From Myxococcota bacterium (lineage in GTDB: Bacteria; Myxococcota_A; UBA9160; UBA4427): a stretch of 64,000 bases of DNA. The position numbers and the translations under genes were made by a program. The notes beneath the pieces are model-generated. The model was given only the letters and a program-made list of their open reading frames with translations. It was not told where the DNA came from and did no database searches. Position 1 is the stretch's first letter. Each line of letters begins with the position of its first letter. The stretch is taken from positions 21,098-85,097 of the forward strand of contig JANQEL010000048.1 of assembly GCA_028278345.1 (NCBI GenBank). Direction: 5' to 3'. Shown in pieces: positions 9,931-23,594 of this stretch.

Positions 9931-11475
9931 TTGGTGACTTCGCGTTCCGACGCTTCGCGCCACTCGATCGCACTCGCCTATTCCCTCGCCTACGCCTTCG
10001 TCTTCATCCTCGGCGTCGTTCACCGCTGGCCCCTCCTCGACCCGCCCTCCCTCTGGCTCGACGATCAGTGGGTCGCGACCCTGGTGCGTTTCGCGGGGCT
10101 CGAGGAACTCTTCGGCTATCGCGCCTCGGCCCCCATGGGCTTCGTTGCGTTCTCGAAGATCGCGCCGATCTGGGTGTCGGATGTCGAGATCGGGTTGCAG
10201 CTCTTCCCGATGGCTTGCGGACTCGCGATGCCCATCGCGCTGGGCCTCTTCGTCGCGCGGATGACCGGACATGCGAGCCTCGGCCTGCTCGCCGCCGCGA
10301 TCGCCACCGCGAACCCGATCACAGCGGGTTACTCGATGCGCGTGAAGCAGTTCTCCTTCGACGCCTTGATTTCGACCGGGATGCTCGCGGTCGGACTCCC
10401 CCTGCTGATGGGTCGCGCGAGGCTTCCGTGGTGGCCGGTGCTCACGAGCATCGCGGCCGGTTGGCTCACCTACGTTTCAGCCCTCATCTCCCTGCCCCTG
10501 CTCCACGTCGCGGCCCTGCGCGTCTGGCTGCGCGATGCAGCTGCACGCACCCGCGCGCTGGTTTCGATCGCGGTTCTCGATCTCTCGTTCTTCCTTCTCT
10601 ACTGGCTGCGGGTTCGGCATCAGTCGCGAACGGGCACGGTCGAGTTCTGGATGGAACGCGGCGGACTCCCCCACGACAAGTCGTTCGGCGCCCTCCTCGA
10701 TTACTACCTGCTCGACGGAATCTTCCTGCGCGGGATCGCCGGGGCCCTGCCCGTTCTGCCCAAGATCGTCGCGGCCGCCATCGCCGGGCTCGCCCTGCTG
10801 TGGCTGCTCCGCGAAGCGAGGACCCGCTTCATCGGGCTCTTCTTCCTGGGCTTCTATGCGCAGCTCGCCGTGGCGGCGGGCCTGCGCCTGTACCCCTTTG
10901 GCGGCGATCGCACGGACATCTTCAGCTACCCGGTGACGATCTCGCTCGTGATGCTCGTCGCGGGCCACGCACTCAACACCCTGCGCACGAGCAACCCGAT
11001 GCGATTGCGGAACACGACGCGCGGGATCGCAGCTCTGGCCCTGGCCCTTCCCATCGCGGCCTTCGCCTTCGCGCGCTTCGACCCCGTGGGCCAGGTCATC
11101 ACCGACGACGCCGAGATGGTCCGCATCCTCGAAGCCGAACGGCGCGAAGGCGACGTGGTCGTGGTCTCCTACCAATCACGCTACGCCGTCGCGACCTACG
11201 GCTCCTGGCCCATGACCTACGTCCAGCCCGAGGTCGGCAAGTTCTACGTACGGGTCGATCGACCGGACACCCACGTCATGCGCGATCACGACGCGTTCGA
11301 AGGCTCCTGGATCGAGAACGCCCAGCGCGTGCTCTACCTGCACGTGAATCTCACCGAGAGGAACGCCCCCTATCGCGAGGAGATCGAAGGGCGGATCGAT
11401 TCCAGCGGCTTCGAACGGGTCGATCGCATCGAACGGCGACGCGGCTCGCTCTCGATCTTCGAAGCAGAGAGCTAG
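9931..11475 (+). CDS. Polytopic membrane protein, glycosyltransferase family 39-like
   Basis: Many TM segments with an N-terminal WLDDQWVATLVRF acidic motif. TTG or GTG start (9931 or 9934). Confidence 0.6.
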   Translation: MVTSRSDASRHSIALAYSLAYAFVFILGVVHRWPLLDPPSLWLDDQWVATLVRFAGLEELFGYRASAPMGFVAFSKIAPIWVSDVEIGLQLFPMACGLAMPIALGLFVARMTGHASLGLLAAAIATANPITAGYSMRVKQFSFDALISTGMLAVGLPLLMGRARLPWWPVLTSIAAGWLTYVSALISLPLLHVAALRVWLRDAAARTRALVSIAVLDLSFFLLYWLRVRHQSRTGTVEFWMERGGLPHDKSFGALLDYYLLDGIFLRGIAGALPVLPKIVAAAIAGLALLWLLREARTRFIGLFFLGFYAQLAVAAGLRLYPFGGDRTDIFSYPVTISLVMLVAGHALNTLRTSNPMRLRNTTRGIAALALALPIAAFAFARFDPVGQVITDDAEMVRILEAERREGDVVVVSYQSRYAVATYGSWPMTYVQPEVGKFYVRVDRPDTHVMRDHDAFEGSWIENAQRVLYLHVNLTERNAPYREEIEGRIDSSGFERVDRIERRRGSLSIFEAES

Positions 11476-14237
11476 TCGTCCACGCGCGGCAGGGTCACGC
11501 GGAAGATCGTGCCGCCGTTCTCGGGGCAGTCGACTTCGAGGGCCCCGGCGTGGTTCTCGATGATCTTGCGCGAGATCGAGAGGCCGAGGCCCGTGCCCTG
11601 CCCCGCCGACTTCGTCGTGAAGAAGGGATCGAAGATCTGTCTGCGGACGTCGTGGGGGATACCCGGGCCGTCGTCTTGGACTTCGACTCGAATGCTGCTC
11701 GCGTCGTGCAGCACGCGAATGTCGATGTGACCACCCTGCCCTTCGAAGGCGTCGGCCGCGTTCTTGATCAGGTTGAGGAAGACCTGGTTGAGCGCGCCCG
11801 GATCTCCCTTGATGAGCGGGAGCCCCGGCAACACGTCGAGTTGCACCTCGGCGTTCGCTTCGGAGAGCCCCGGGCGCAGCAATTGCAGCGTCGAGCGGAT
11901 CCCGGTTTCGACGCTGATGTTCGGGGCGTGATTGCTCTTGCGTCCGGGAGCAGCGAAGTCGCGTAGATCCGCGACCAGGGTCTTCGTGCGCTCGAGACCC
12001 GAGCGGATGATGTCGGATAGCTCGCGAATCGTCTGCGCCAGGGTCGCGAGGTTTTCGGGGTCGGCGAGAGGAAAGGGGGCGTCGCGACGCGCTGCATCCA
12101 TGACGTCCTCGCGAATGCCCTCGAACTCGGCGTCGAGCGCTCGCGAGGCGTTGAGCGCGAAGTTCACGGGGTTGTTGACCTCGTGGGCGATGCCCGCCGC
12201 CAGTTCGCCGACCGCGGCAAGCCGCTCGTTGTGGATGATCTGGACCTCCGCCTGCTTGAGATCGTCGAGGGTCGCCTGCAGGCGTTCGTTCTTCTGCGCG
12301 AGTTCGCGCTGCAGCCCGCGCACACGCACCAGCGTCCGAACCCGGGCCATGAGTTCGCGCGGATGGAAGGGCTTGGTGATGTAGTCGTCGGCACCGAGCT
12401 CGAGCCCCTCGACCTGCATCTCATGTTCGGCCTTGGAAGTGACGAGCACGACGGGGATCGCGTTCGTCTCCTCGCAGGTCTTGATCTCGCGGCAGAGTTC
12501 GATGCCCGACATCTCGGGCATCATGACGTCCGAGAGCACGAGATCGGGCGCCTTCAGGCGAACCTGTTCGAGGGCTTCGAGACCATTGCGCGTGGTGCGG
12601 ACGCGGAACTCGCGACCGAGCAGGGTGGCGAGCAGGCGTCGCATGTCGGGATTGTCTTCGGCGATCAACACCTCGCCGGAAAGGGCTCCATCGGGAGCCC
12701 CCGCGACGGCGACGGTTTCGTTCGCCGCTTCGCGATCCTCCCAGCGCTCTACCAGGCTTTCGATCTCGACGAGATCCCCCGCCGCCTGCGCTGCGACGGA
12801 AGCGCCTTCGGGCACGTCCGAATCGCGCTCGATGTTCAGCTCCGCTTCGACGGCTTCGATCGAATGGCCGAGGCCGAGGGCCTGCTGTGCGTCGGTGCGC
12901 AGCACGTCTTCGACGTCGCCGGCATCGGCTTCGCCGATCGGCAGGAAGACGGTCATGGTCGTGCCATGCCCCCGCCCGTCGCTGTGGGCGCGAACGTCTC
13001 CGCCGTGGAGCTGCGCGAGTTCGAAGGCCAGCGAGAGCCCGATCCCGGTGCCTTCGTGGGAACGCGTCGCCGAACCGTCCACCTGGGCAAAGCGATCGAA
13101 CACCGCATCGAGCTTGTCGGGCGGTATGCCGACCCCCGAATCCTTCACGTGCATCCGCACACCGCCGTCGACCGCTTCGCCGATCAACTCGATCGTGCCA
13201 CCCGCCGGGGTGAACTTGAGCGCGTTGCCCACGAGGTTCATCAGGATCTTCTCGACCGCGGTCGCATCGGCGTTGATGCCCGGCAGGCCGTCGAAGCCCG
13301 ACATCTCGAGGCGGATCTCCTTGCGTTCCGCCATGCCGCGCGCCGCCGTGACGAGATCGGTCGCGAGTTCTTCGAGGTCGACGGGGGCGCGATGGATCTC
13401 GAAGAGCTTGCTCTCGAGCTTCGAGAGGTCGAGCAGGTTCGAGATCAGCTTGAACAGACGGCGCCCATTGGCGTGCATGGTCTCGACGGTGTCGCGCAGC
13501 ATTGGAGAGATCTCTCCGAAATCTCCCGAGCGGATCGCATCGAGGGGCGCGAGGATCAGCGTGAGTGGCGTGCGCAGTTCGTGGTGCACGTTCGCACTGA
13601 AACGCGACTTCGCCTGGTCGAGTTCGGCGAGTTCGTCGCGCGCGGTCTGGATCTCGCGACGCTGCATGAAGTCGGCGATGCGCATGCCCTCGAGCACGGC
13701 ACAGCTCGCCACGCATTCGATGGCCGCCGCCGCCGGGAAGAAGATGTTCATCGCATAGGCGCGAAAGGTGAGATCCGCTCCCATGACGAAGGGCTCGATC
13801 GCAAGTGCGCCGAGCGAGACCGAGACCACCTGCGCGGCTTGCCCCGCGGACATCGGGATCAAGACCGGGAGCCCGAGGAAGAGCAGCATCAGCCCCGGGG
13901 CGTAACCGCTCGGCAGTCCGCCGGCCGCGCTGATCACGACCACGAGCCCGAGACCCGTGCAATGACACGCGGTGATCGCCCGCGAAGCCCCGTCGGCGGG
14001 CCAGCGACTGAAGTACATCCCCGCCATGACGGCCGTCCACGCGATCCTCACCGCGAGCAGCTCGTAGAAGCGCTCGGGAAAGACCCAGAGATCAAGGGTC
14101 ACGAAGAGCAGATTGAGACAGACGACCACCACGATGCCCGAACGCATCGCGTCGATCATTCGCTCACTGCTTACGACCTCGCGATACTCGCGATACAGCG
14201 CGTCGTCGATGTCGCGGCGGAAGAACACGTGCCGCAC
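11472..14237 (-). CDS. Hybrid histidine kinase: TM sensor, HisKA-HATPase, receiver, second HisKA-HATPase
   Basis: H-boxes VHHELRTPL and GIAHEVNNP; ATP-binding GVGIPPDKLDAVFDRF/GTGIGLSL and DDGPGIPHDVRRQIFDPFFTTK/GTGLGLSIS; REC VLIAEDNPDMRR...LVLSDVMMPEMSG...DDYITKPF. Confidence 0.93.
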   Translation of the reverse strand: MRHVFFRRDIDDALYREYREVVSSERMIDAMRSGIVVVVCLNLLFVTLDLWVFPERFYELLAVRIAWTAVMAGMYFSRWPADGASRAITACHCTGLGLVVVISAAGGLPSGYAPGLMLLFLGLPVLIPMSAGQAAQVVSVSLGALAIEPFVMGADLTFRAYAMNIFFPAAAAIECVASCAVLEGMRIADFMQRREIQTARDELAELDQAKSRFSANVHHELRTPLTLILAPLDAIRSGDFGEISPMLRDTVETMHANGRRLFKLISNLLDLSKLESKLFEIHRAPVDLEELATDLVTAARGMAERKEIRLEMSGFDGLPGINADATAVEKILMNLVGNALKFTPAGGTIELIGEAVDGGVRMHVKDSGVGIPPDKLDAVFDRFAQVDGSATRSHEGTGIGLSLAFELAQLHGGDVRAHSDGRGHGTTMTVFLPIGEADAGDVEDVLRTDAQQALGLGHSIEAVEAELNIERDSDVPEGASVAAQAAGDLVEIESLVERWEDREAANETVAVAGAPDGALSGEVLIAEDNPDMRRLLATLLGREFRVRTTRNGLEALEQVRLKAPDLVLSDVMMPEMSGIELCREIKTCEETNAIPVVLVTSKAEHEMQVEGLELGADDYITKPFHPRELMARVRTLVRVRGLQRELAQKNERLQATLDDLKQAEVQIIHNERLAAVGELAAGIAHEVNNPVNFALNASRALDAEFEGIREDVMDAARRDAPFPLADPENLATLAQTIRELSDIIRSGLERTKTLVADLRDFAAPGRKSNHAPNISVETGIRSTLQLLRPGLSEANAEVQLDVLPGLPLIKGDPGALNQVFLNLIKNAADAFEGQGGHIDIRVLHDASSIRVEVQDDGPGIPHDVRRQIFDPFFTTKSAGQGTGLGLSISRKIIENHAGALEVDCPENGGTIFRVTLPRVDD

Positions 14238-14308: not shown

Positions 14309-16579
14309 TCATGAAGACTTGCGATCGGCCAGCAACAAGAGTGGTGGCAGGAGGAACATGTCGGCCAACAGGCAGAGGAAGACGAGGCCCGAAGTCACCA
14401 GGCCGAGGTTCCGGATCAACGTGAACTGCGAGAGGGCGAGCACCGCGAAGCCCACGATGATCGACACCGTGGTGAAGACGAGGGCCGGAAGCACGTGTTC
14501 CATGCAACCGTCGAGGGCCATCAAGGGCTTCTCTCCCGCCTTCCGGCGATCGGTATAGCCCGTCATCACGTGAATCGTGTCGTCGACCGCGATCCCGAGC
14601 GCAAGCGAGCCCAGACAGACGGTCGCCGCGTCGAGGGGGATCCCGGCCAGGCCCATTGCGCCGAAGGTGATCACCAGCGGCACGGCGTTCGGAACCAGCG
14701 CCACCAACGCGCTCTTCGGTACGCGCAGGATCAGCAGCAGGACGACGCCGATCGAGATCAAGGCGATCGAGAGGCCCGCCGCCTGCCCCCACGCAATCTG
14801 CTCTTCCGAGCGACCGAACTCGTACATCAGGCCCGTGGTTTCGACGCCGAAGTCTTCGGGGCGGTTCTGCGCCCACCAGCGATCGATGCGCTCGCCCAGG
14901 GCTACGAGTCGATCGCTGCCGTTGTCGTTCGCGCGCAGCAGCATGTTCGCGCCACTGCGATCACCCGTGATCACGTCGTCCATGTACTCGACGCTCTCGA
15001 GCAACACGAGGTATTGCTCGTTCAACTGCCGCGAACCCGGCAGCATGCCGGCTTCTTCTGCAGCGAATACCCCGTGAACGCTTCGCAAGGGGTCGGCCAC
15101 CGAGAGCGCCTTGCCGATCTCGGGTTGGGCCTCGAGGTATCGCGCGAGGGAGTCGAGGGCTTCGATCGCGCGGGGTTCGGTCACCACCGCGTCCCCCAGC
15201 GCGTGGACGACGACGTTGACGGGAGAGATCCCCGAAAGCTCTTCGCGCAACACCTCATAGTCGTCGCGAATCTCGCTTCCCTTCGGAAACCACACGATGA
15301 TGTCGGTCGAGACCCGCAGGGCGAAGACACCGAACAGGAACAGCGAGAGCCCCACCGCCCAGATGCCCAGGGCCGGCGTTCGATGGCGATTCGTCACGTG
15401 CACGACCAGGGGCCGCAGACGCGCCCGGATCCAATCGCCGAAGATCGAGCGCCGCTCCGGAATCGGGCGCAGCACAATCAGCGCCGGGGCAAGCGAGAGC
15501 GACGCCGCCGTCAGGACCAGAACCCCGAGCGCGCCGAACACGGCGAGCTGTTGGATCGCCACGATTCGCACCGAAGCCATCGCGAGGAAGCCGATCGCCG
15601 TCGTCATCCCCGAGAGTGCAACGGGTTTCGCAACGCGGCCGATGGCGAGGCCGAGGGGGCCGCGTTCGGAGATTCCCTGCCCTGCGGTGAGCACGTGCAT
15701 CGAGTACGCGCAGCCCAGCGCGAGCAGGATCGAAGGCAGCACCATCGTCGAGAGCGAAAGCGCGACCCCCGACACGCTCATGCCGCCGACCGCCGCGAGG
15801 CTCCCCGCCGCGCCGACCGCGAGGGGAATCGAGATTGGTCGCAAGCTCGCGAACGCGAAGCCCACCACGATGGCGACCAGCAAGAGGGTGATCGGCACGA
15901 AGATCAACACCTCGATGTAGGTGCGCGAATTTACCTTCGTGCGAAACAGCGGGACCCCGGAGGCGTACGACTCGCGGTCGTGCATGAGGTTCTCGATCGC
16001 CGCCACGATCTGGGTTCGATCCCCGTAGATGGTCTCGTCGAGCACGACGTTGATGGCGAAGAGACGACCGTCCTGCGAGAACAGGCTGTCCTTTGCGATG
16101 GGATCACGCTCGAGGTCGCGCACCAGGCGGTCGAGCTCGGCGGCGCTTTCCGGAACGCCATCCTCGAGGGCCGCGTCGAGGATGAGTTCGCCCTCGGGCC
16201 CGGCGCGGATCAACGGCACCGTCGAGAGGCTATCGACGCGACGCACCCCGGGAAGCGACTCCATCGCCGAAGTCAGGCTCTCGATCTCGACCAGGGTCTC
16301 GCGCGCGAAGGGCTCGGACGCTTCGAGAGCGACGACGATGAACTCGTCGCCCCCGTATTGGTCGAGGCTGTGCTGATAGACCGCCCACGCGGGACTCGAT
16401 TGATCGAGAAACGTCGAGGTCGAGGTATCGAGATCGAGGCGCAGCAGCGTCGAAGCCAGGGTGATCGACACCGCGATCCAACTCCACATGGTGAGGCGCG
16501 GAGCATCGATCGCCGCAAGCACGAGCCCGCGCGGCACCCCGAACACCGCCTCGCGAAGGCGAACGATCGCCGCCCTCAT
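14309..16579 (-). CDS. RND/MMPL-family transporter
   Basis: 757 codons, twin-repeat RND topology (LPSILLALGCAYSMHVLTA and CLGSLALGIAVDDTIHVMTGYTDRR). Start overlaps the stop of the upstream gene (ATGA). Confidence 0.88.
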   Translation of the reverse strand: MRAAIVRLREAVFGVPRGLVLAAIDAPRLTMWSWIAVSITLASTLLRLDLDTSTSTFLDQSSPAWAVYQHSLDQYGGDEFIVVALEASEPFARETLVEIESLTSAMESLPGVRRVDSLSTVPLIRAGPEGELILDAALEDGVPESAAELDRLVRDLERDPIAKDSLFSQDGRLFAINVVLDETIYGDRTQIVAAIENLMHDRESYASGVPLFRTKVNSRTYIEVLIFVPITLLLVAIVVGFAFASLRPISIPLAVGAAGSLAAVGGMSVSGVALSLSTMVLPSILLALGCAYSMHVLTAGQGISERGPLGLAIGRVAKPVALSGMTTAIGFLAMASVRIVAIQQLAVFGALGVLVLTAASLSLAPALIVLRPIPERRSIFGDWIRARLRPLVVHVTNRHRTPALGIWAVGLSLFLFGVFALRVSTDIIVWFPKGSEIRDDYEVLREELSGISPVNVVVHALGDAVVTEPRAIEALDSLARYLEAQPEIGKALSVADPLRSVHGVFAAEEAGMLPGSRQLNEQYLVLLESVEYMDDVITGDRSGANMLLRANDNGSDRLVALGERIDRWWAQNRPEDFGVETTGLMYEFGRSEEQIAWGQAAGLSIALISIGVVLLLILRVPKSALVALVPNAVPLVITFGAMGLAGIPLDAATVCLGSLALGIAVDDTIHVMTGYTDRRKAGEKPLMALDGCMEHVLPALVFTTVSIIVGFAVLALSQFTLIRNLGLVTSGLVFLCLLADMFLLPPLLLLADRKSS

Positions 16580-19098
16580 CCGCGGCGGCGGGCCGAGATC
16601 ACGACGGCCTGCGGGGGATCGCCGAAGGCCGTTTCGCTCCTCACAGCTTCGAAGCCGGCGGCGGTCACGAGCTTCTCGAGTTCGTCGGCGTCCCAGAAGC
16701 GGAAGCGTCCCTCTTCTTCGAGATCGAGCAGCCGTGCCGCATCGCTCAGGAACCACCGCTGCAGTTCAGCGAACTCGCGCACCCCATCCTCTCCGAAGAG
16801 GCTGCGCACGCGATCGGGTGGCAGTTCGGCGATGCCGTCCACGTAGATCTTCGAGATGTCGGCATCGCGCGCGAGGCTCGAGAGCACGAGACGCCCGCCC
16901 GGGCGCATCACCCGCGCCACCTCGTGGATCAAGCGCTCGGCGTCGGGCAGGTAACTGATCAGCAGCGAGAGCAAAGCGGCATCCGCGCAACCCGTCGCAA
17001 GCGGTACCCCGCGCCCATCCGAGAGATCGAGGTTCGCCGCCACTGAGTCGTTCGAAGCGAAGACCGCTGGCGCATGGGTGTGTTCTTCGAGGCGAACGCG
17101 TCCCCGCGCGAGGGCCTCGGTGACGAAGTCCATTTCCGTCACGTGGAAACCCGCCTCCTCGGGCGCGTTCTCCGCGAGGTGCAGCGGGAAATCGCCGGCG
17201 CCCGAACCGAAGTCGACGACGTGATCCCCCGGTGCGAGTGCGAGCCGCTCGACCTGCAGCGCCATCAAGCGGCGATAGGCCGAAGTCGCCGTCATCAGCT
17301 CGATCCCGAGCTTGCGATCGCGGCCGAGCAGATAGTCGGACCAGAAGGCCCGCAGGTCGAAGGCGTGCTTCGGCATCCGGGCCCGCTCGGCGTTCGAGTG
17401 GGCTTCTAGGAGAGTCAGATCCGGAAGCGCGGGCTCGATCTCGCGTCCGAGCAACATGGTCGACACTTCGCGCGTGGCGAGCTGGAAGGTCTCGAGGGCC
17501 TGTCGACTGCTGCGAAGTTGATGTCCGGTCGGCACTTCGATGAGACGCCGACGGCTCGTGTCGCCGGCCGAGAGCAGACGGCGAACGCGACCGAGCTCCA
17601 TCCAGGCGTCGTAGCGTCCGTGCAGCCAGGTGATGGGAACCTTGATGTGTTCCATGTCGCGCTTGGCGTCTTCGAAGAGCACCATGCGGTGATCGAGGGC
17701 GTCGTGGCCCGTCGCATCCATGTCGGCTTTCACGCCGACGAGTTCGTGTCGGCCGAAGTGGACGCCTCGCGCGAGGCCGAACGCGTAGTCGACGCCACCC
17801 GACACGGTGCGCAGCCCCGATTGCAGATCCACCATGCCCACGAGGGAGAGCCAGCCCTTGATGCGCCCGCTCACGTCCTGCGCGATCGCGCGCCGCCCTT
17901 CGACGGCTCCCATGCTGATCGTCAGCATGGCGAACTCGCGCGTCTGGAAGCGCTCGTCCTGTTCGAGGAAATCCAGGGTGGCCACGATGTCCGCCACGGC
18001 CTGCGAAAAGCGGAAACCGAGGTATTCGTCTCCAGCCGCGCGATACGGCGGATCGATGTGGCTCTCGCCGCGACGATTCGTTCCATCGAAGCGGAGCACC
18101 ACCAGCGGCTCACCCGCCTTCTCGAACGTGCGCACCAATGTGGCCGCCAGGGGCAGCATGGTTTCCTTCGTGCGTCCCCAGGCCGGCGGAATCACGACGG
18201 CGGGTGCACCGCGTGGATCGCCGGTCGTGTTCACGATCGCAGACATGCGCTGGCCGCGATCGTTCTCGTATTCGACGACGTCGATCTCTGCGTTCGCCGA
18301 ACGTCCGGTGAACTTGCGGACCAGGCGCGACGAGCCTCCGCGAGCCATGGCGCCCACCATGGAGATGCGGCGCCACGTGTTCATGCGGCGTCCGCCTCCG
18401 AGCATCGAGTCGTGTCGCTCGACCGGAATCATCTCGCGAGTGGGTACGCGACTGATCGCCATCCCGAGGCGCACCCAATCGCGTTCGATCTCGTCGGCGC
18501 GTTTGTGCTTGAGATCGCCGTAGACCGATTCGCCGGCGCGCGAACCGTCGAGGAACTTGAGCTGCAGCGGAAACGAAACGCGCTCGGCGACGTCGCGTGG
18601 CACCGCGAGGGACAGGCCTTGATAGGAAACGTCGCGAAGCTTCGCGGTCAGCACGTTTCCGCGTTGATCGTGGAACTCGACCCGCGCGTCGCTGGCCCTT
18701 CGCTCCGTCTCGACCGGCTCGCGCACCATGTCGCGACGCTCGGATTGATAGATTGCACGGGGAAATCGGATCTCGATGCGACCGTTGCCGCACTCGGCGC
18801 GCGGTGCCGCCACGAGGAAGTAGCCAACCCCTTCGAACTCGAAGTCGAAGTAGATCTGTTCGTGGGGATGGAAGCGGATGTTCTCGACGTCGAGTTCGAC
18901 GTGATCCTTCGCCACCAGGGCGACGCGCGCGGTACGCGTTCGACTCTTGTAGTCGACGCCGTTCGAGAGCCGGACCTGTTCGCGTGCGAGGGCTTCGAGG
19001 AACGTGCGCAGCTCTTGCGGGGACTGGATCGCTCCCCGATGCAGGTGCTTCAGGCTGTCACCCGAAAGCGGCTTCAACCGGCTCTGCGCGCTCAGCAT
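16576..19098 (-). CDS. Triple-domain protein: YcgR/PilZ-like, alpha/beta hydrolase (acyltransferase-like), SAM methyltransferase
   Basis: PilZ signature RRDMVR (RxxxR) plus DVSYQG (DxSxxG); hydrolase region with ISMGA, HGRYDAW and GHQL; MTase motif I VVDFGSGAGDFP. Confidence 0.85.
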   Translation of the reverse strand: MLSAQSRLKPLSGDSLKHLHRGAIQSPQELRTFLEALAREQVRLSNGVDYKSRTRTARVALVAKDHVELDVENIRFHPHEQIYFDFEFEGVGYFLVAAPRAECGNGRIEIRFPRAIYQSERRDMVREPVETERRASDARVEFHDQRGNVLTAKLRDVSYQGLSLAVPRDVAERVSFPLQLKFLDGSRAGESVYGDLKHKRADEIERDWVRLGMAISRVPTREMIPVERHDSMLGGGRRMNTWRRISMVGAMARGGSSRLVRKFTGRSANAEIDVVEYENDRGQRMSAIVNTTGDPRGAPAVVIPPAWGRTKETMLPLAATLVRTFEKAGEPLVVLRFDGTNRRGESHIDPPYRAAGDEYLGFRFSQAVADIVATLDFLEQDERFQTREFAMLTISMGAVEGRRAIAQDVSGRIKGWLSLVGMVDLQSGLRTVSGGVDYAFGLARGVHFGRHELVGVKADMDATGHDALDHRMVLFEDAKRDMEHIKVPITWLHGRYDAWMELGRVRRLLSAGDTSRRRLIEVPTGHQLRSSRQALETFQLATREVSTMLLGREIEPALPDLTLLEAHSNAERARMPKHAFDLRAFWSDYLLGRDRKLGIELMTATSAYRRLMALQVERLALAPGDHVVDFGSGAGDFPLHLAENAPEEAGFHVTEMDFVTEALARGRVRLEEHTHAPAVFASNDSVAANLDLSDGRGVPLATGCADAALLSLLISYLPDAERLIHEVARVMRPGGRLVLSSLARDADISKIYVDGIAELPPDRVRSLFGEDGVREFAELQRWFLSDAARLLDLEEEGRFRFWDADELEKLVTAAGFEAVRSETAFGDPPQAVVISARRRG

Positions 19099-19694: not shown

Positions 19695-20873
<1,179 letters not shown>

Positions 20874-20891: not shown

Positions 20892-21665
20892 CTAGAGAAG
20901 ATGGGAATTGACGTTGATGCCACCGTCGGCGAGCACACACGCCCCGGTGACGAATGACGCTCGATCGGAGGCGAGCCAGATGACGGGTTGCGCGATCTCG
21001 TCGGGCTCGGCGATGCGACGCATCGCGTGCTGCGCGATGGTGCGCTCCCTGTCTTCGGGGAATCGTTCGAAGTAGCGCGCGATGGCGGGCGTATTGAACC
21101 CTCCTGGCGCAACCGAATTGACGCGAATGCCGCGCGCCGAGTACTCGGCGGCCCCCGTCCGCGTCAACGCATCGACGCCCCCTTTGGCGGCGATGTACGA
21201 GCCGAGCATCGCCTCGCCCTTCGAAACACTCGCCGTGATGATGTTGATGATGGAACCGCCGCCGCGTTCGAGCATCGCGGGGATCTCTTCGCGCATGCAG
21301 TAGAAGACGCCGTCGAGGGTGACGTCCATCGTGCGACGCCAGGTGTGGTCTTCGGTCTCGTGCAGGGCATGGAAGCCTCCGGCTCCGCCCACGGCATTGT
21401 TCGACGCCCAGTCGAGCCCACCGAATTGCGACAAAGTCGCTGCGACCATGGCCTTGACCTGCTCGGGATCCGCCACGTCGGTCGACACGAAGGCCGCCTC
21501 ACCTCCCACGGCTTCGACTTCGGCCACTGTCTGCTTGCCGCCGGCCTCGTCGATGTCGGCGACGATCACCTTCGAGCCCTCGCGCGCCGCGAGCACGCAG
21601 GTGGCCCGGCCCAATCCACTTCCACCACCGGTCACGAGACCGACCTTGCCTTCGAGTAGACCCAT
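20892..21665 (-). CDS. Short-chain dehydrogenase/reductase
   Basis: GKVGLVTGGGSGLGRA; Ser/Tyr-K region YIAAKGGVDALTR; RVNSVAPGGFNTP. Confidence 0.93.
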   Translation of the reverse strand: MGLLEGKVGLVTGGGSGLGRATCVLAAREGSKVIVADIDEAGGKQTVAEVEAVGGEAAFVSTDVADPEQVKAMVAATLSQFGGLDWASNNAVGGAGGFHALHETEDHTWRRTMDVTLDGVFYCMREEIPAMLERGGGSIINIITASVSKGEAMLGSYIAAKGGVDALTRTGAAEYSARGIRVNSVAPGGFNTPAIARYFERFPEDRERTIAQHAMRRIAEPDEIAQPVIWLASDRASFVTGACVLADGGINVNSHLL

Positions 21666-21767
21666 CGCCTTCTCCTCTGGGGTTGCTCCCGCTCCCCACA
21701 CCTCGCAAGATTGCTCCAGAGGGCGCCGCGCGCACGCAAAAGCGAGCGAGTGACGCTCTAGATCAGG

Positions 21768-23594
21768 GTGTCTGGAACCGGAGGCGAAGTGGGGCTGCTA
21801 CGAGATCGACGCTTCGCACCCTTCTTCTGGACCCAGTTCCTCGGTGCCTTCACCGACAACGCCTTCAAGCAGGCGTTGATCCTGATGATCACCTTTCGCG
21901 CCACGATGGGCGAAGCCGAGACGGGCGTGTTGATCGCCGTCGCCTCGGGGCTGTTCATTCTGCCCTACTTCCTGTTCAGCCCGCTGGCCGGGCAGATCGC
22001 CGACAAGTACGACAAGGCGACGGTGATGCGCCACGTGAAGGCCCTCGAGATCGCCATCATGGTGCTCGCCGCCGTGGGCTTCGCGATGGCCGCGATCGGC
22101 ATCACCTGGGCCGAGGCCTACCTGATCGCGATCCTCTTCTTGATGGGCACCCAGTCGACCTTCTTCGGGCCCGCGAAGTACTCGATCATTCCGCAGCACC
22201 TTCGCGAAGAAGAGCTGATGGAAGGCACGGCCTTCGTCGAGATGGGCACCTTCGTCGCGATCCTCACGGGCACGATCGTCGGCGGCATCCTGATCATGCA
22301 GAGCGAGTTCCTGGTCGGGGGGAGCCTGATCGCGTTGGCCGCTACCGGCTGGCTGGCGAGTCGCCGCATCCCGGCCGCCGCCCCGAGCAACCCCGATCAA
22401 CCGCTCCGACTGAATTGGCTTTCGGAGTACGGCCAGCTCTATCGCGTTTCGAAGCAGAAGCAGTCGGTCTTCCTCGCGATCCTCGGCATCTCCTGGTTCT
22501 GGTTCCTCGGCGCGATGGTGATGGCGCAGCTGCCCAACTACGTGAAGCTGTTCATCCGCGGAGACGAGCCCGTCTATATCTTCTTTCTCTCGCTCTTCAC
22601 GATTAGCATCGCGCTCGGGTCCGTGCTGACGAACCGGCTGACGAACGCCACTGTCGAGTTGGGCATGGTGCCCTGCGGTGCGATCGGTCTCTCCCTCTTT
22701 CCCCTCGACATCGGTTGGCTCGACTACTCGCAACTCTCGGAGACGACCCTCACCCTCGGCGCCATGCTCAGCCTGCAGGCCGACCCGCTCATCTATCGCG
22801 TGGTCTTCGACGTCTTCGGGATGGGGATCGCTTCGAGCTTCTTCATCGTGCCGCTGTACGCGCTGCTGCAACACCGCACCGACGAGAAGACCCGCTCGCA
22901 GGTGATCGCCGCGAACAACGTGGCCGGCGCGGCCTACATGGTGGCTTCCGCGGCCGTCGTCTCCCTGCTCTACACCCTCGGCTTCGACACAGCACAGCTC
23001 TTCGTCTTCCTCGCCACCTTCAACGCGCTCAACACGGTGTATCTCGTCGCGGGCCACCCCGAGTTCGTGCTGCGCTTCGGCAGCTGGTTGCTCGGGCTCC
23101 TGCGCTACCGCGTCGAGTACCACGGTCGCAGGAACATCCCGCGCGACGGCGCGTGCCTCCTGCTCGCGAATCGCGGGAGCTGGCTCGATTGGCCGGTGAT
23201 CACGGCGGCGTGCGAACGGCCCGTGCGTTTCGTGATCGACCGCAACCGCGGCGGTTCATCGGGGTACGGATTGCTGGCGCGCTGGCTCGGCGCGATCGTG
23301 CTGCACCCCGATCGTGAGGCGGCCGATACCCCGAGCGACGTCGTGGACGCCCTCGAACGCGGCGAGGTCGTCTGCTTCTTCGAAGATGGTGAGACCCTGG
23401 GTGCGATCCTCGAACGCACCGACGTTCGCGGAGTGCCGGTGGCGCTACACGGCTTCTCCGCAACCTCGATCGAAGTCGGCCCCGATGGATGGTTGCGACG
23501 CAGCGTCGCGGTCACGATTGGCGAGGCCCACCCGGCTCCGTGCGCGCCGGAAGCGCTGGCCGTATCGGCTTCGCAACTCCACGCAAGCGCCTGA
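21768..23594 (+). CDS. MFS transporter fused to a PlsC-like acyltransferase domain (LplT-Aas-like, no ligase domain)
   Basis: GTG start. N-terminal MFS (FWTQFLGAFTDNAFKQALILM) followed by a cytosolic LPLAT-like domain (CLLLANRGSWLDWPVI...GEVVCFFEDGE). Confidence 0.85.
   Translation: MSGTGGEVGLLRDRRFAPFFWTQFLGAFTDNAFKQALILMITFRATMGEAETGVLIAVASGLFILPYFLFSPLAGQIADKYDKATVMRHVKALEIAIMVLAAVGFAMAAIGITWAEAYLIAILFLMGTQSTFFGPAKYSIIPQHLREEELMEGTAFVEMGTFVAILTGTIVGGILIMQSEFLVGGSLIALAATGWLASRRIPAAAPSNPDQPLRLNWLSEYGQLYRVSKQKQSVFLAILGISWFWFLGAMVMAQLPNYVKLFIRGDEPVYIFFLSLFTISIALGSVLTNRLTNATVELGMVPCGAIGLSLFPLDIGWLDYSQLSETTLTLGAMLSLQADPLIYRVVFDVFGMGIASSFFIVPLYALLQHRTDEKTRSQVIAANNVAGAAYMVASAAVVSLLYTLGFDTAQLFVFLATFNALNTVYLVAGHPEFVLRFGSWLLGLLRYRVEYHGRRNIPRDGACLLLANRGSWLDWPVITAACERPVRFVIDRNRGGSSGYGLLARWLGAIVLHPDREAADTPSDVVDALERGEVVCFFEDGETLGAILERTDVRGVPVALHGFSATSIEVGPDGWLRRSVAVTIGEAHPAPCAPEALAVSASQLHASA

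Follow-up and report, generated by a model that had tools for sequence, protein, structure and literature searches.

The window analysed here, a 64,000-nucleotide stretch of a Myxococcota contig, contains an apparent operon on the minus strand in which a three-domain fusion gene is followed by genes for an MMPL exporter and a membrane hybrid histidine kinase (Table 1), the kinase gene beginning about 70 bases past the exporter gene. The initial annotation had reported the fusion as a single 840-aa open reading frame without stating a strand; the frame is uninterrupted at 16576-19098 and is read on the minus strand (19098 to 16576), and the plus strand across the same interval contains stops in that frame. 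About 600 bases upstream on the same strand lie genes that by eye encode a thiolase (19695-20858) and a short-chain dehydrogenase (20892-21701), a pair that is not part of the conserved neighbourhood of the fusion loci of relatives. Further on, a 608-aa ORF (21768-23594, plus strand) appears by eye to be a major facilitator-type transporter fused to a lipid acyltransferase (LplT/Aas-like). An Rfam search over the window gave no match, so no known c-di-GMP riboswitch is present there.

Table 1. Features of the fusion locus in window coordinates. Fractions count family members (29 full-length members where the denominator is 29, otherwise the 47-sequence set or those of its members that align).
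Feature	Position	Strand	Basis
Fusion gene, 840 aa: YcgR-N/PilZ - LuxD-like alpha/beta hydrolase - class I methyltransferase	16576..19098	-	ORF, conservation, model
YcgR-type N-terminal domain, about residues 12-118	18745..19065	-	Profile match to PP4397 and YcgR 5y6f; all-beta in model
PilZ domain, about residues 119-230	18409..18744	-	Pfam, profile, model
RxxxR c-di-GMP motif, R122-R126	18721..18735	-	Invariant 29/29, 37/37; R126 aligns with PP4397 R127
DxSxxG c-di-GMP motif, D156-G161	18616..18633	-	Position 156 D/N 38/38, 158 S/T 37/38, G161 38/38; G161 aligns with PP4397 G162
Long helical linker, residues 237-264	18307..18390	-	Model secondary structure
LuxD-like alpha/beta hydrolase domain, about residues 266-566	17401..18303	-	1tht by profile and Foldseek; Pfam Acyl_transf_2 in 28/47
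Nucleophile S395	17914..17916	-	47/47; aligns with LuxD Ser114
Catalytic D497 (predicted)	17608..17610	-	47/47; aligns with LuxD Asp211
Catalytic H526 (predicted)	17521..17523	-	47/47
Class I SAM methyltransferase domain, residues 567-840	16579..17400	-	Pfam Methyltransf_23 E 1e-12; MitM/RebM/Coq5-like fold
SAM motif I, DFGSGAG region, residues 627-635	17194..17220	-	D629, G631, G633 47/47
MMPL/HAE3-type RND exporter, 756 aa	14309..16579	-	Pfam MMPL E 3e-29; ATG overlaps fusion stop codon (ATGA); conserved adjacency
Membrane hybrid histidine kinase, 921 aa: multi-TM sensor - HisKA - HATPase - REC - second kinase module	11472..14237	-	Pfam; conserved adjacency; sensor conserved between phyla

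Domains and motifs of the fusion protein

Every motif on which the initial annotation had relied is present in the protein, i.e. RRDMVR (R122-x3-R126), DVSYQG (D156-x-S158-x2-G161), TISMGA (with S395), HGRYDAW (D497), GHQLRSS (H526) and VVDFGSGAGDFP (D629xG631xG633). E120, R121, R122, R126, G161, S395, D497, H526, D629, G631 and G633 are invariant among 29 full-length family members, so the motifs are more than chance occurrences, and both c-di-GMP motifs, the Ser/Asp/His triad and SAM motif I remain essentially invariant in a set of 47 sequences that includes Aminicenantes. A Pfam search with the fusion protein alone recognised the methyltransferase, but Hydrolase_4 (E 0.001) and PilZ (E 0.04) stayed under the curated cut-offs and were recovered only via relatives (PilZ at E 1.5e-16 in one of them, Acyl_transf_2/LuxD at a best E of 3.5e-10); the earlier motif reading was thus ahead of a plain domain scan. 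The order PilZ, hydrolase, methyltransferase was upheld by profile and structure searches, and the full-length predicted model (pLDDT 88.7) has 1tht as its top fold match.

The N-terminus is modelled as two beta domains with the YcgR-N plus PilZ fold. Its profile matched PP4397 in the PDB over residues 19-225 with E 9e-5 (2gjg and 3kyf, the latter the c-di-GMP complex) and, weakly, YcgR (5y6f, E 0.014). Most of the 29 members are otherwise only 16-32% identical to the window protein in this region, and the two c-di-GMP signature elements that had been read from the sequence are near-invariant and also hold in the profile alignment. An arginine just before RxxxR, which goes with binding of a c-di-GMP dimer, is conserved in YcgR/PP4397 (FlgZ) and in the Myxococcota branch of the fusion. 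The two-domain arrangement and both motifs are likewise shared with YcgR/PP4397, but those proteins act on the flagellar motor with no attached enzyme, whereas the fusion carries enzyme domains. In PP4397, R127A or G162A abolish c-di-GMP binding (PMC6093933), and a related YcgR protein has two c-di-GMP bound per monomer (PMC11800159). Residue invariance and homology together make it very probable that the YcgR-type module binds c-di-GMP at RRxxxR...DxSxxG. The genome itself contains 24 GGDEF and 26 PilZ matches, so the source organism likely makes c-di-GMP.

Among solved structures, the nearest to the hydrolase domain is LuxD. The sole PDB match of the hydrolase profile was 1tht (E 6e-7), LuxD, the myristoyl-ACP thioesterase of Vibrio harveyi (Pfam PF02273); S395 and D497 align onto the LuxD triad residues Ser114 and Asp211, the histidine alignment lying outside the printed match. 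An AlphaFold2 model of the domain (pLDDT 93.9) retrieved 1tht first in Foldseek (E 1e-16, TM 0.77); esterases and monoglyceride lipases scored only slightly lower. PF02273 was matched at E <= 0.05 by 28 of the 47 members, of which one full-length Aminicenantes protein scored just above the gathering score, and was not matched by the window protein itself. A genome search with PF02273 gave no match anywhere, controls included, and so carries no information. Both the fold and the Ser/Asp/His triad of a LuxD-type thioesterase are found here; of the LuxD/FrsA-like assignment made initially, the resemblance to LuxD stands in profile and fold searches, LuxD rather than FrsA being the closest structure. 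Acyl (thio)esterase chemistry is probable for this domain, on the strength of the LuxD homology and the invariant triad. LuxD stands alone in the luciferase operon, whereas the domain described here, about 16% identical to it, is fused to PilZ and methyltransferase domains, and no LuxC partner is encoded in the fusion operon. Elsewhere in the same genome there are LuxC-family (PF05893) acyl-reductase-like genes (G000:C28:9306-10535 and G000:C70:30041-31144, in frames of 714 and 552 aa, E about 1e-41), and LuxC-family matches occur in the nine relatives tested, two of them weak; none adjoins the LuxD-like fusion.

The C-terminal third is, as had been proposed, a class I methyltransferase, complete and with an invariant Rossmann-type motif I (DxGxG). 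NCBIfam matches of the window domain all fell far below cut-offs, giving no substrate-defined family; UbiE, BioC, ArsM and other models matched weakly, UbiE and BioC doing so in all members. With weak matches to many families and none that exceeds its cut-off, methylation of a carboxyl group is guesswork.

The family and its operon in two phyla

The same domain order recurs across the order at 34-71% identity, with about thirty genomes among 98 relatives containing full-length or long homologues, mostly of about 795-850 aa. Within the phylum, 55 of 379 genomes carry the hydrolase domain at E <= 1e-20, nearly always in frames of 800-1300 aa; the few shorter frames are at contig ends, as read from their coordinates, or in masked sequence. 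A scan of genome contigs with a single sequence returned nothing, and an alignment-based scan of GTDB genomes returned 50 loci, roughly half of which bear the label Candidatus Aminicenantes or Acidobacteriota; the labels Spirochaeta and Thermoanaerobaculia, each from a single draft, may reflect misbinning. Most carriers are draft genomes from metagenomes, and gene calls in relatives are ORF-based with uncertain start sites. The search for the same architecture in other genomes, which the initial annotation had suggested, thus places it in dozens of genomes from two phyla. A search for plasmid homologues of the fusion found only unrelated methyltransferases, the one Paraburkholderia match inspected proved to be a stand-alone methyltransferase of about 290 aa, and the hydrolase-based scan of GTDB genomes contained no Burkholderiales.

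In the Aminicenantes/Acidobacteriota branch the protein is longer, about 1180 aa, and reads receiver, PilZ, YcgR-N, second PilZ, hydrolase and a methyltransferase with an insert. The phosphorylation site of the receiver is Asn or Gly in most readable copies, and it may therefore often be a pseudo-receiver.

The operon is conserved in both phyla. Among the Myxococcota-type loci, 26 extend at least 3.2 kb past the fusion. A histidine-kinase H-box lies on the same strand within 4.2 kb downstream in 25 of these, the remaining one (L052) having a kinase-cluster ORF there, and the exporter, either downstream or divergent, lies within 400 bp in 21, with one more seen separately. At all 19 Aminicenantes-type loci with enough sequence the kinase comes directly after the fusion, its ORF overlapping the end of the fusion gene, and carries a receiver plus HD-GYP, a c-di-GMP phosphodiesterase domain; the exporter is absent at the Aminicenantes-type loci examined, and the kinase in the window lacks HD-GYP. 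At L103:11597-14176, L096:11640-14198 and 17 other such loci, membrane sensor, histidine kinase, receiver and HD-GYP thus form one protein. The membrane sensor domains of the two kinase types are homologous (E 4e-37), with invariant residues in 42 sequences; against curated families the sensor had no match over cut-off and matched no named autoinducer receptor family, MASE8 being matched weakly (E 0.002). That a sensor-preserving kinase stays beside the enzyme in two phyla, while the exporter and the output half of the kinase change, argues that enzyme and sensor probably act together. This conserved exporter and kinase operon, which the initial annotation had missed, offers the best indication of function. 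Several Myxococcota loci have a second REC-GAF-kinase next in line (L042:16336-18009) and, at the opposite end, a DNA-binding AAA ATPase regulator with a Trans_reg_C domain (L042:5753-8713); neither is beside the fusion in the window, and both are candidates for the output of the system.

A proposed function and its alternatives

The fusion is tentatively proposed, with slightly less than even confidence, to be a c-di-GMP-responsive acyl-releasing and methylating enzyme heading a signalling operon, for which we infer the gating, substrate, product, export and sensing. Binding of c-di-GMP by the YcgR-type module would alter the activity of the attached LuxD-type hydrolase, which would release a fatty-acyl chain from acyl-ACP or acyl-CoA. 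The fused methyltransferase might then methylate the released product, most simply the carboxylate to give a fatty-acid methyl ester, this being the least certain step. Where present, the co-translated MMPL transporter would export the product, and the membrane hybrid kinase would respond to the product, or to what it does to the membrane, and feed back; in the Aminicenantes branch feedback could act partly via the c-di-GMP phosphodiesterase domain of the kinase itself, which can lower c-di-GMP.

In Ralstonia, a methyltransferase gene shares the phcBSR(Q) operon with genes for a membrane sensor kinase and a receiver-kinase, and a 3-hydroxy fatty-acid methyl ester serves as the signal (PMC11960443, PMC6580516, PMC6989110). 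PhcB/PhcS are thus the precedent from which a fatty-acid methyl ester sensed by an operon-encoded kinase is proposed by analogy: a methyltransferase is linked in an operon to a membrane sensor kinase in both cases, a likeness drawn from the operon descriptions. PhcB is described only as a SAM methyltransferase, and no PilZ, hydrolase or exporter is reported in the Ralstonia phc operon. A methyl-ester-type signal is possible but somewhat less likely than not, and is put forward with more reserve than c-di-GMP binding or acyl (thio)esterase chemistry.

Direct gating of the enzyme by c-di-GMP would fit the invariant ligand motifs, the HD-GYP domain in the partner kinase of Aminicenantes and the number of GGDEF matches in the genome. 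Alternatively, c-di-GMP may bind but serve only to bring the enzyme, or proteins that work with it, to a site such as the membrane or the kinase, or the enzyme may be a constitutive biosynthetic one with its expression set by the kinase. YcgR-type proteins do act via protein contacts at the flagellar motor (PMC6093933), and the adjacent kinase could regulate transcription; however, every carrier that offers enough sequence has PilZ and the catalytic domains in one protein, and a fixed domain arrangement would agree with the full-length model (pTM 0.88). An absence of direct catalytic gating is considered unlikely.

Membrane-lipid remodelling without any cell-cell signal is quite unlikely. A glycerolipid would then be the substrate of the hydrolase, as a lipase or acyltransferase, and a lipid head group that of the methyltransferase, with c-di-GMP tuning membrane composition, the MMPL protein moving lipid and the kinase sensing the state of the membrane. 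The best PDB profile matches of the methyltransferase are indeed phosphoethanolamine N-methyltransferases, with phosphatidylethanolamine N-methyltransferase lower, the fold search placed monoglyceride lipases near LuxD, and MMPL proteins often handle lipids. Yet cross-matches of class I methyltransferases are unspecific, as the BioC and UbiE models that fit all members illustrate, and the hydrolase sequence profile singles out LuxD only. The assembly is a 292-contig draft with 5.9% contamination, but an assembly join or chance fusion of neighbouring genes is ruled out, since dozens of independent genomes from two phyla encode the domains in this order at this length.

Relation to known systems and significance

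The Rpf/DSF locus of xanthomonads brings together an acyl-signal synthase with thioesterase activity (RpfF), a hybrid sensor kinase (RpfC) and an HD-GYP c-di-GMP phosphodiesterase (RpfG). The hybrid-sensor and HD-GYP functions are separate there but fused in the Aminicenantes kinase, and RpfF, unlike the fusion, is a crotonase-fold enzyme without methyltransferase or PilZ. Cellulose synthase BcsA, whose chains matched weakly in the PilZ profile search, is like the fusion a catalytic protein with a fused PilZ domain; it is a glycosyltransferase making a polymer, whereas the fusion is a predicted thioesterase/methyltransferase. In the open-access literature, the scope of the search, no paper was found that treats LuxD and PilZ together, and nothing relevant by title or abstract combines PilZ, a hydrolase or thioesterase and a methyltransferase; the initial annotation's remark that the domain order is not a described family agrees with this. 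The parts are known, while their combination in one protein and the pairing with a dedicated kinase appear to be undescribed. The system is kin to acyl-signal synthase/kinase operons and to PilZ-linked enzymes, and, taken as a whole, it has a fair chance of being a new signalling module.

In its most specific form, which is on balance somewhat unlikely, the proposal is that Myxococcota and Aminicenantes share an undescribed module for signalling between cells or at the membrane, in which a one-protein thioesterase-methyltransferase synthase of a fatty-acid methyl ester would be switched directly by c-di-GMP; one branch would have a dedicated exporter, and in the other a kinase/phosphodiesterase receptor would close the c-di-GMP loop. 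If the proposed function is correct, the output of this c-di-GMP effector would be a small molecule of its own making and neither a polymer nor a contact with the motor, and the second messenger would be coupled directly to the production of an acyl compound, perhaps one perceived extracellularly. Two large and mostly uncultured groups would gain a communication system open to experiment, and a second context would be added for LuxD, which is known from luminous bacteria. Even without a signalling role for its product, the conserved PilZ-thioesterase-methyltransferase and its dedicated kinase would represent a new type of c-di-GMP-linked enzyme.
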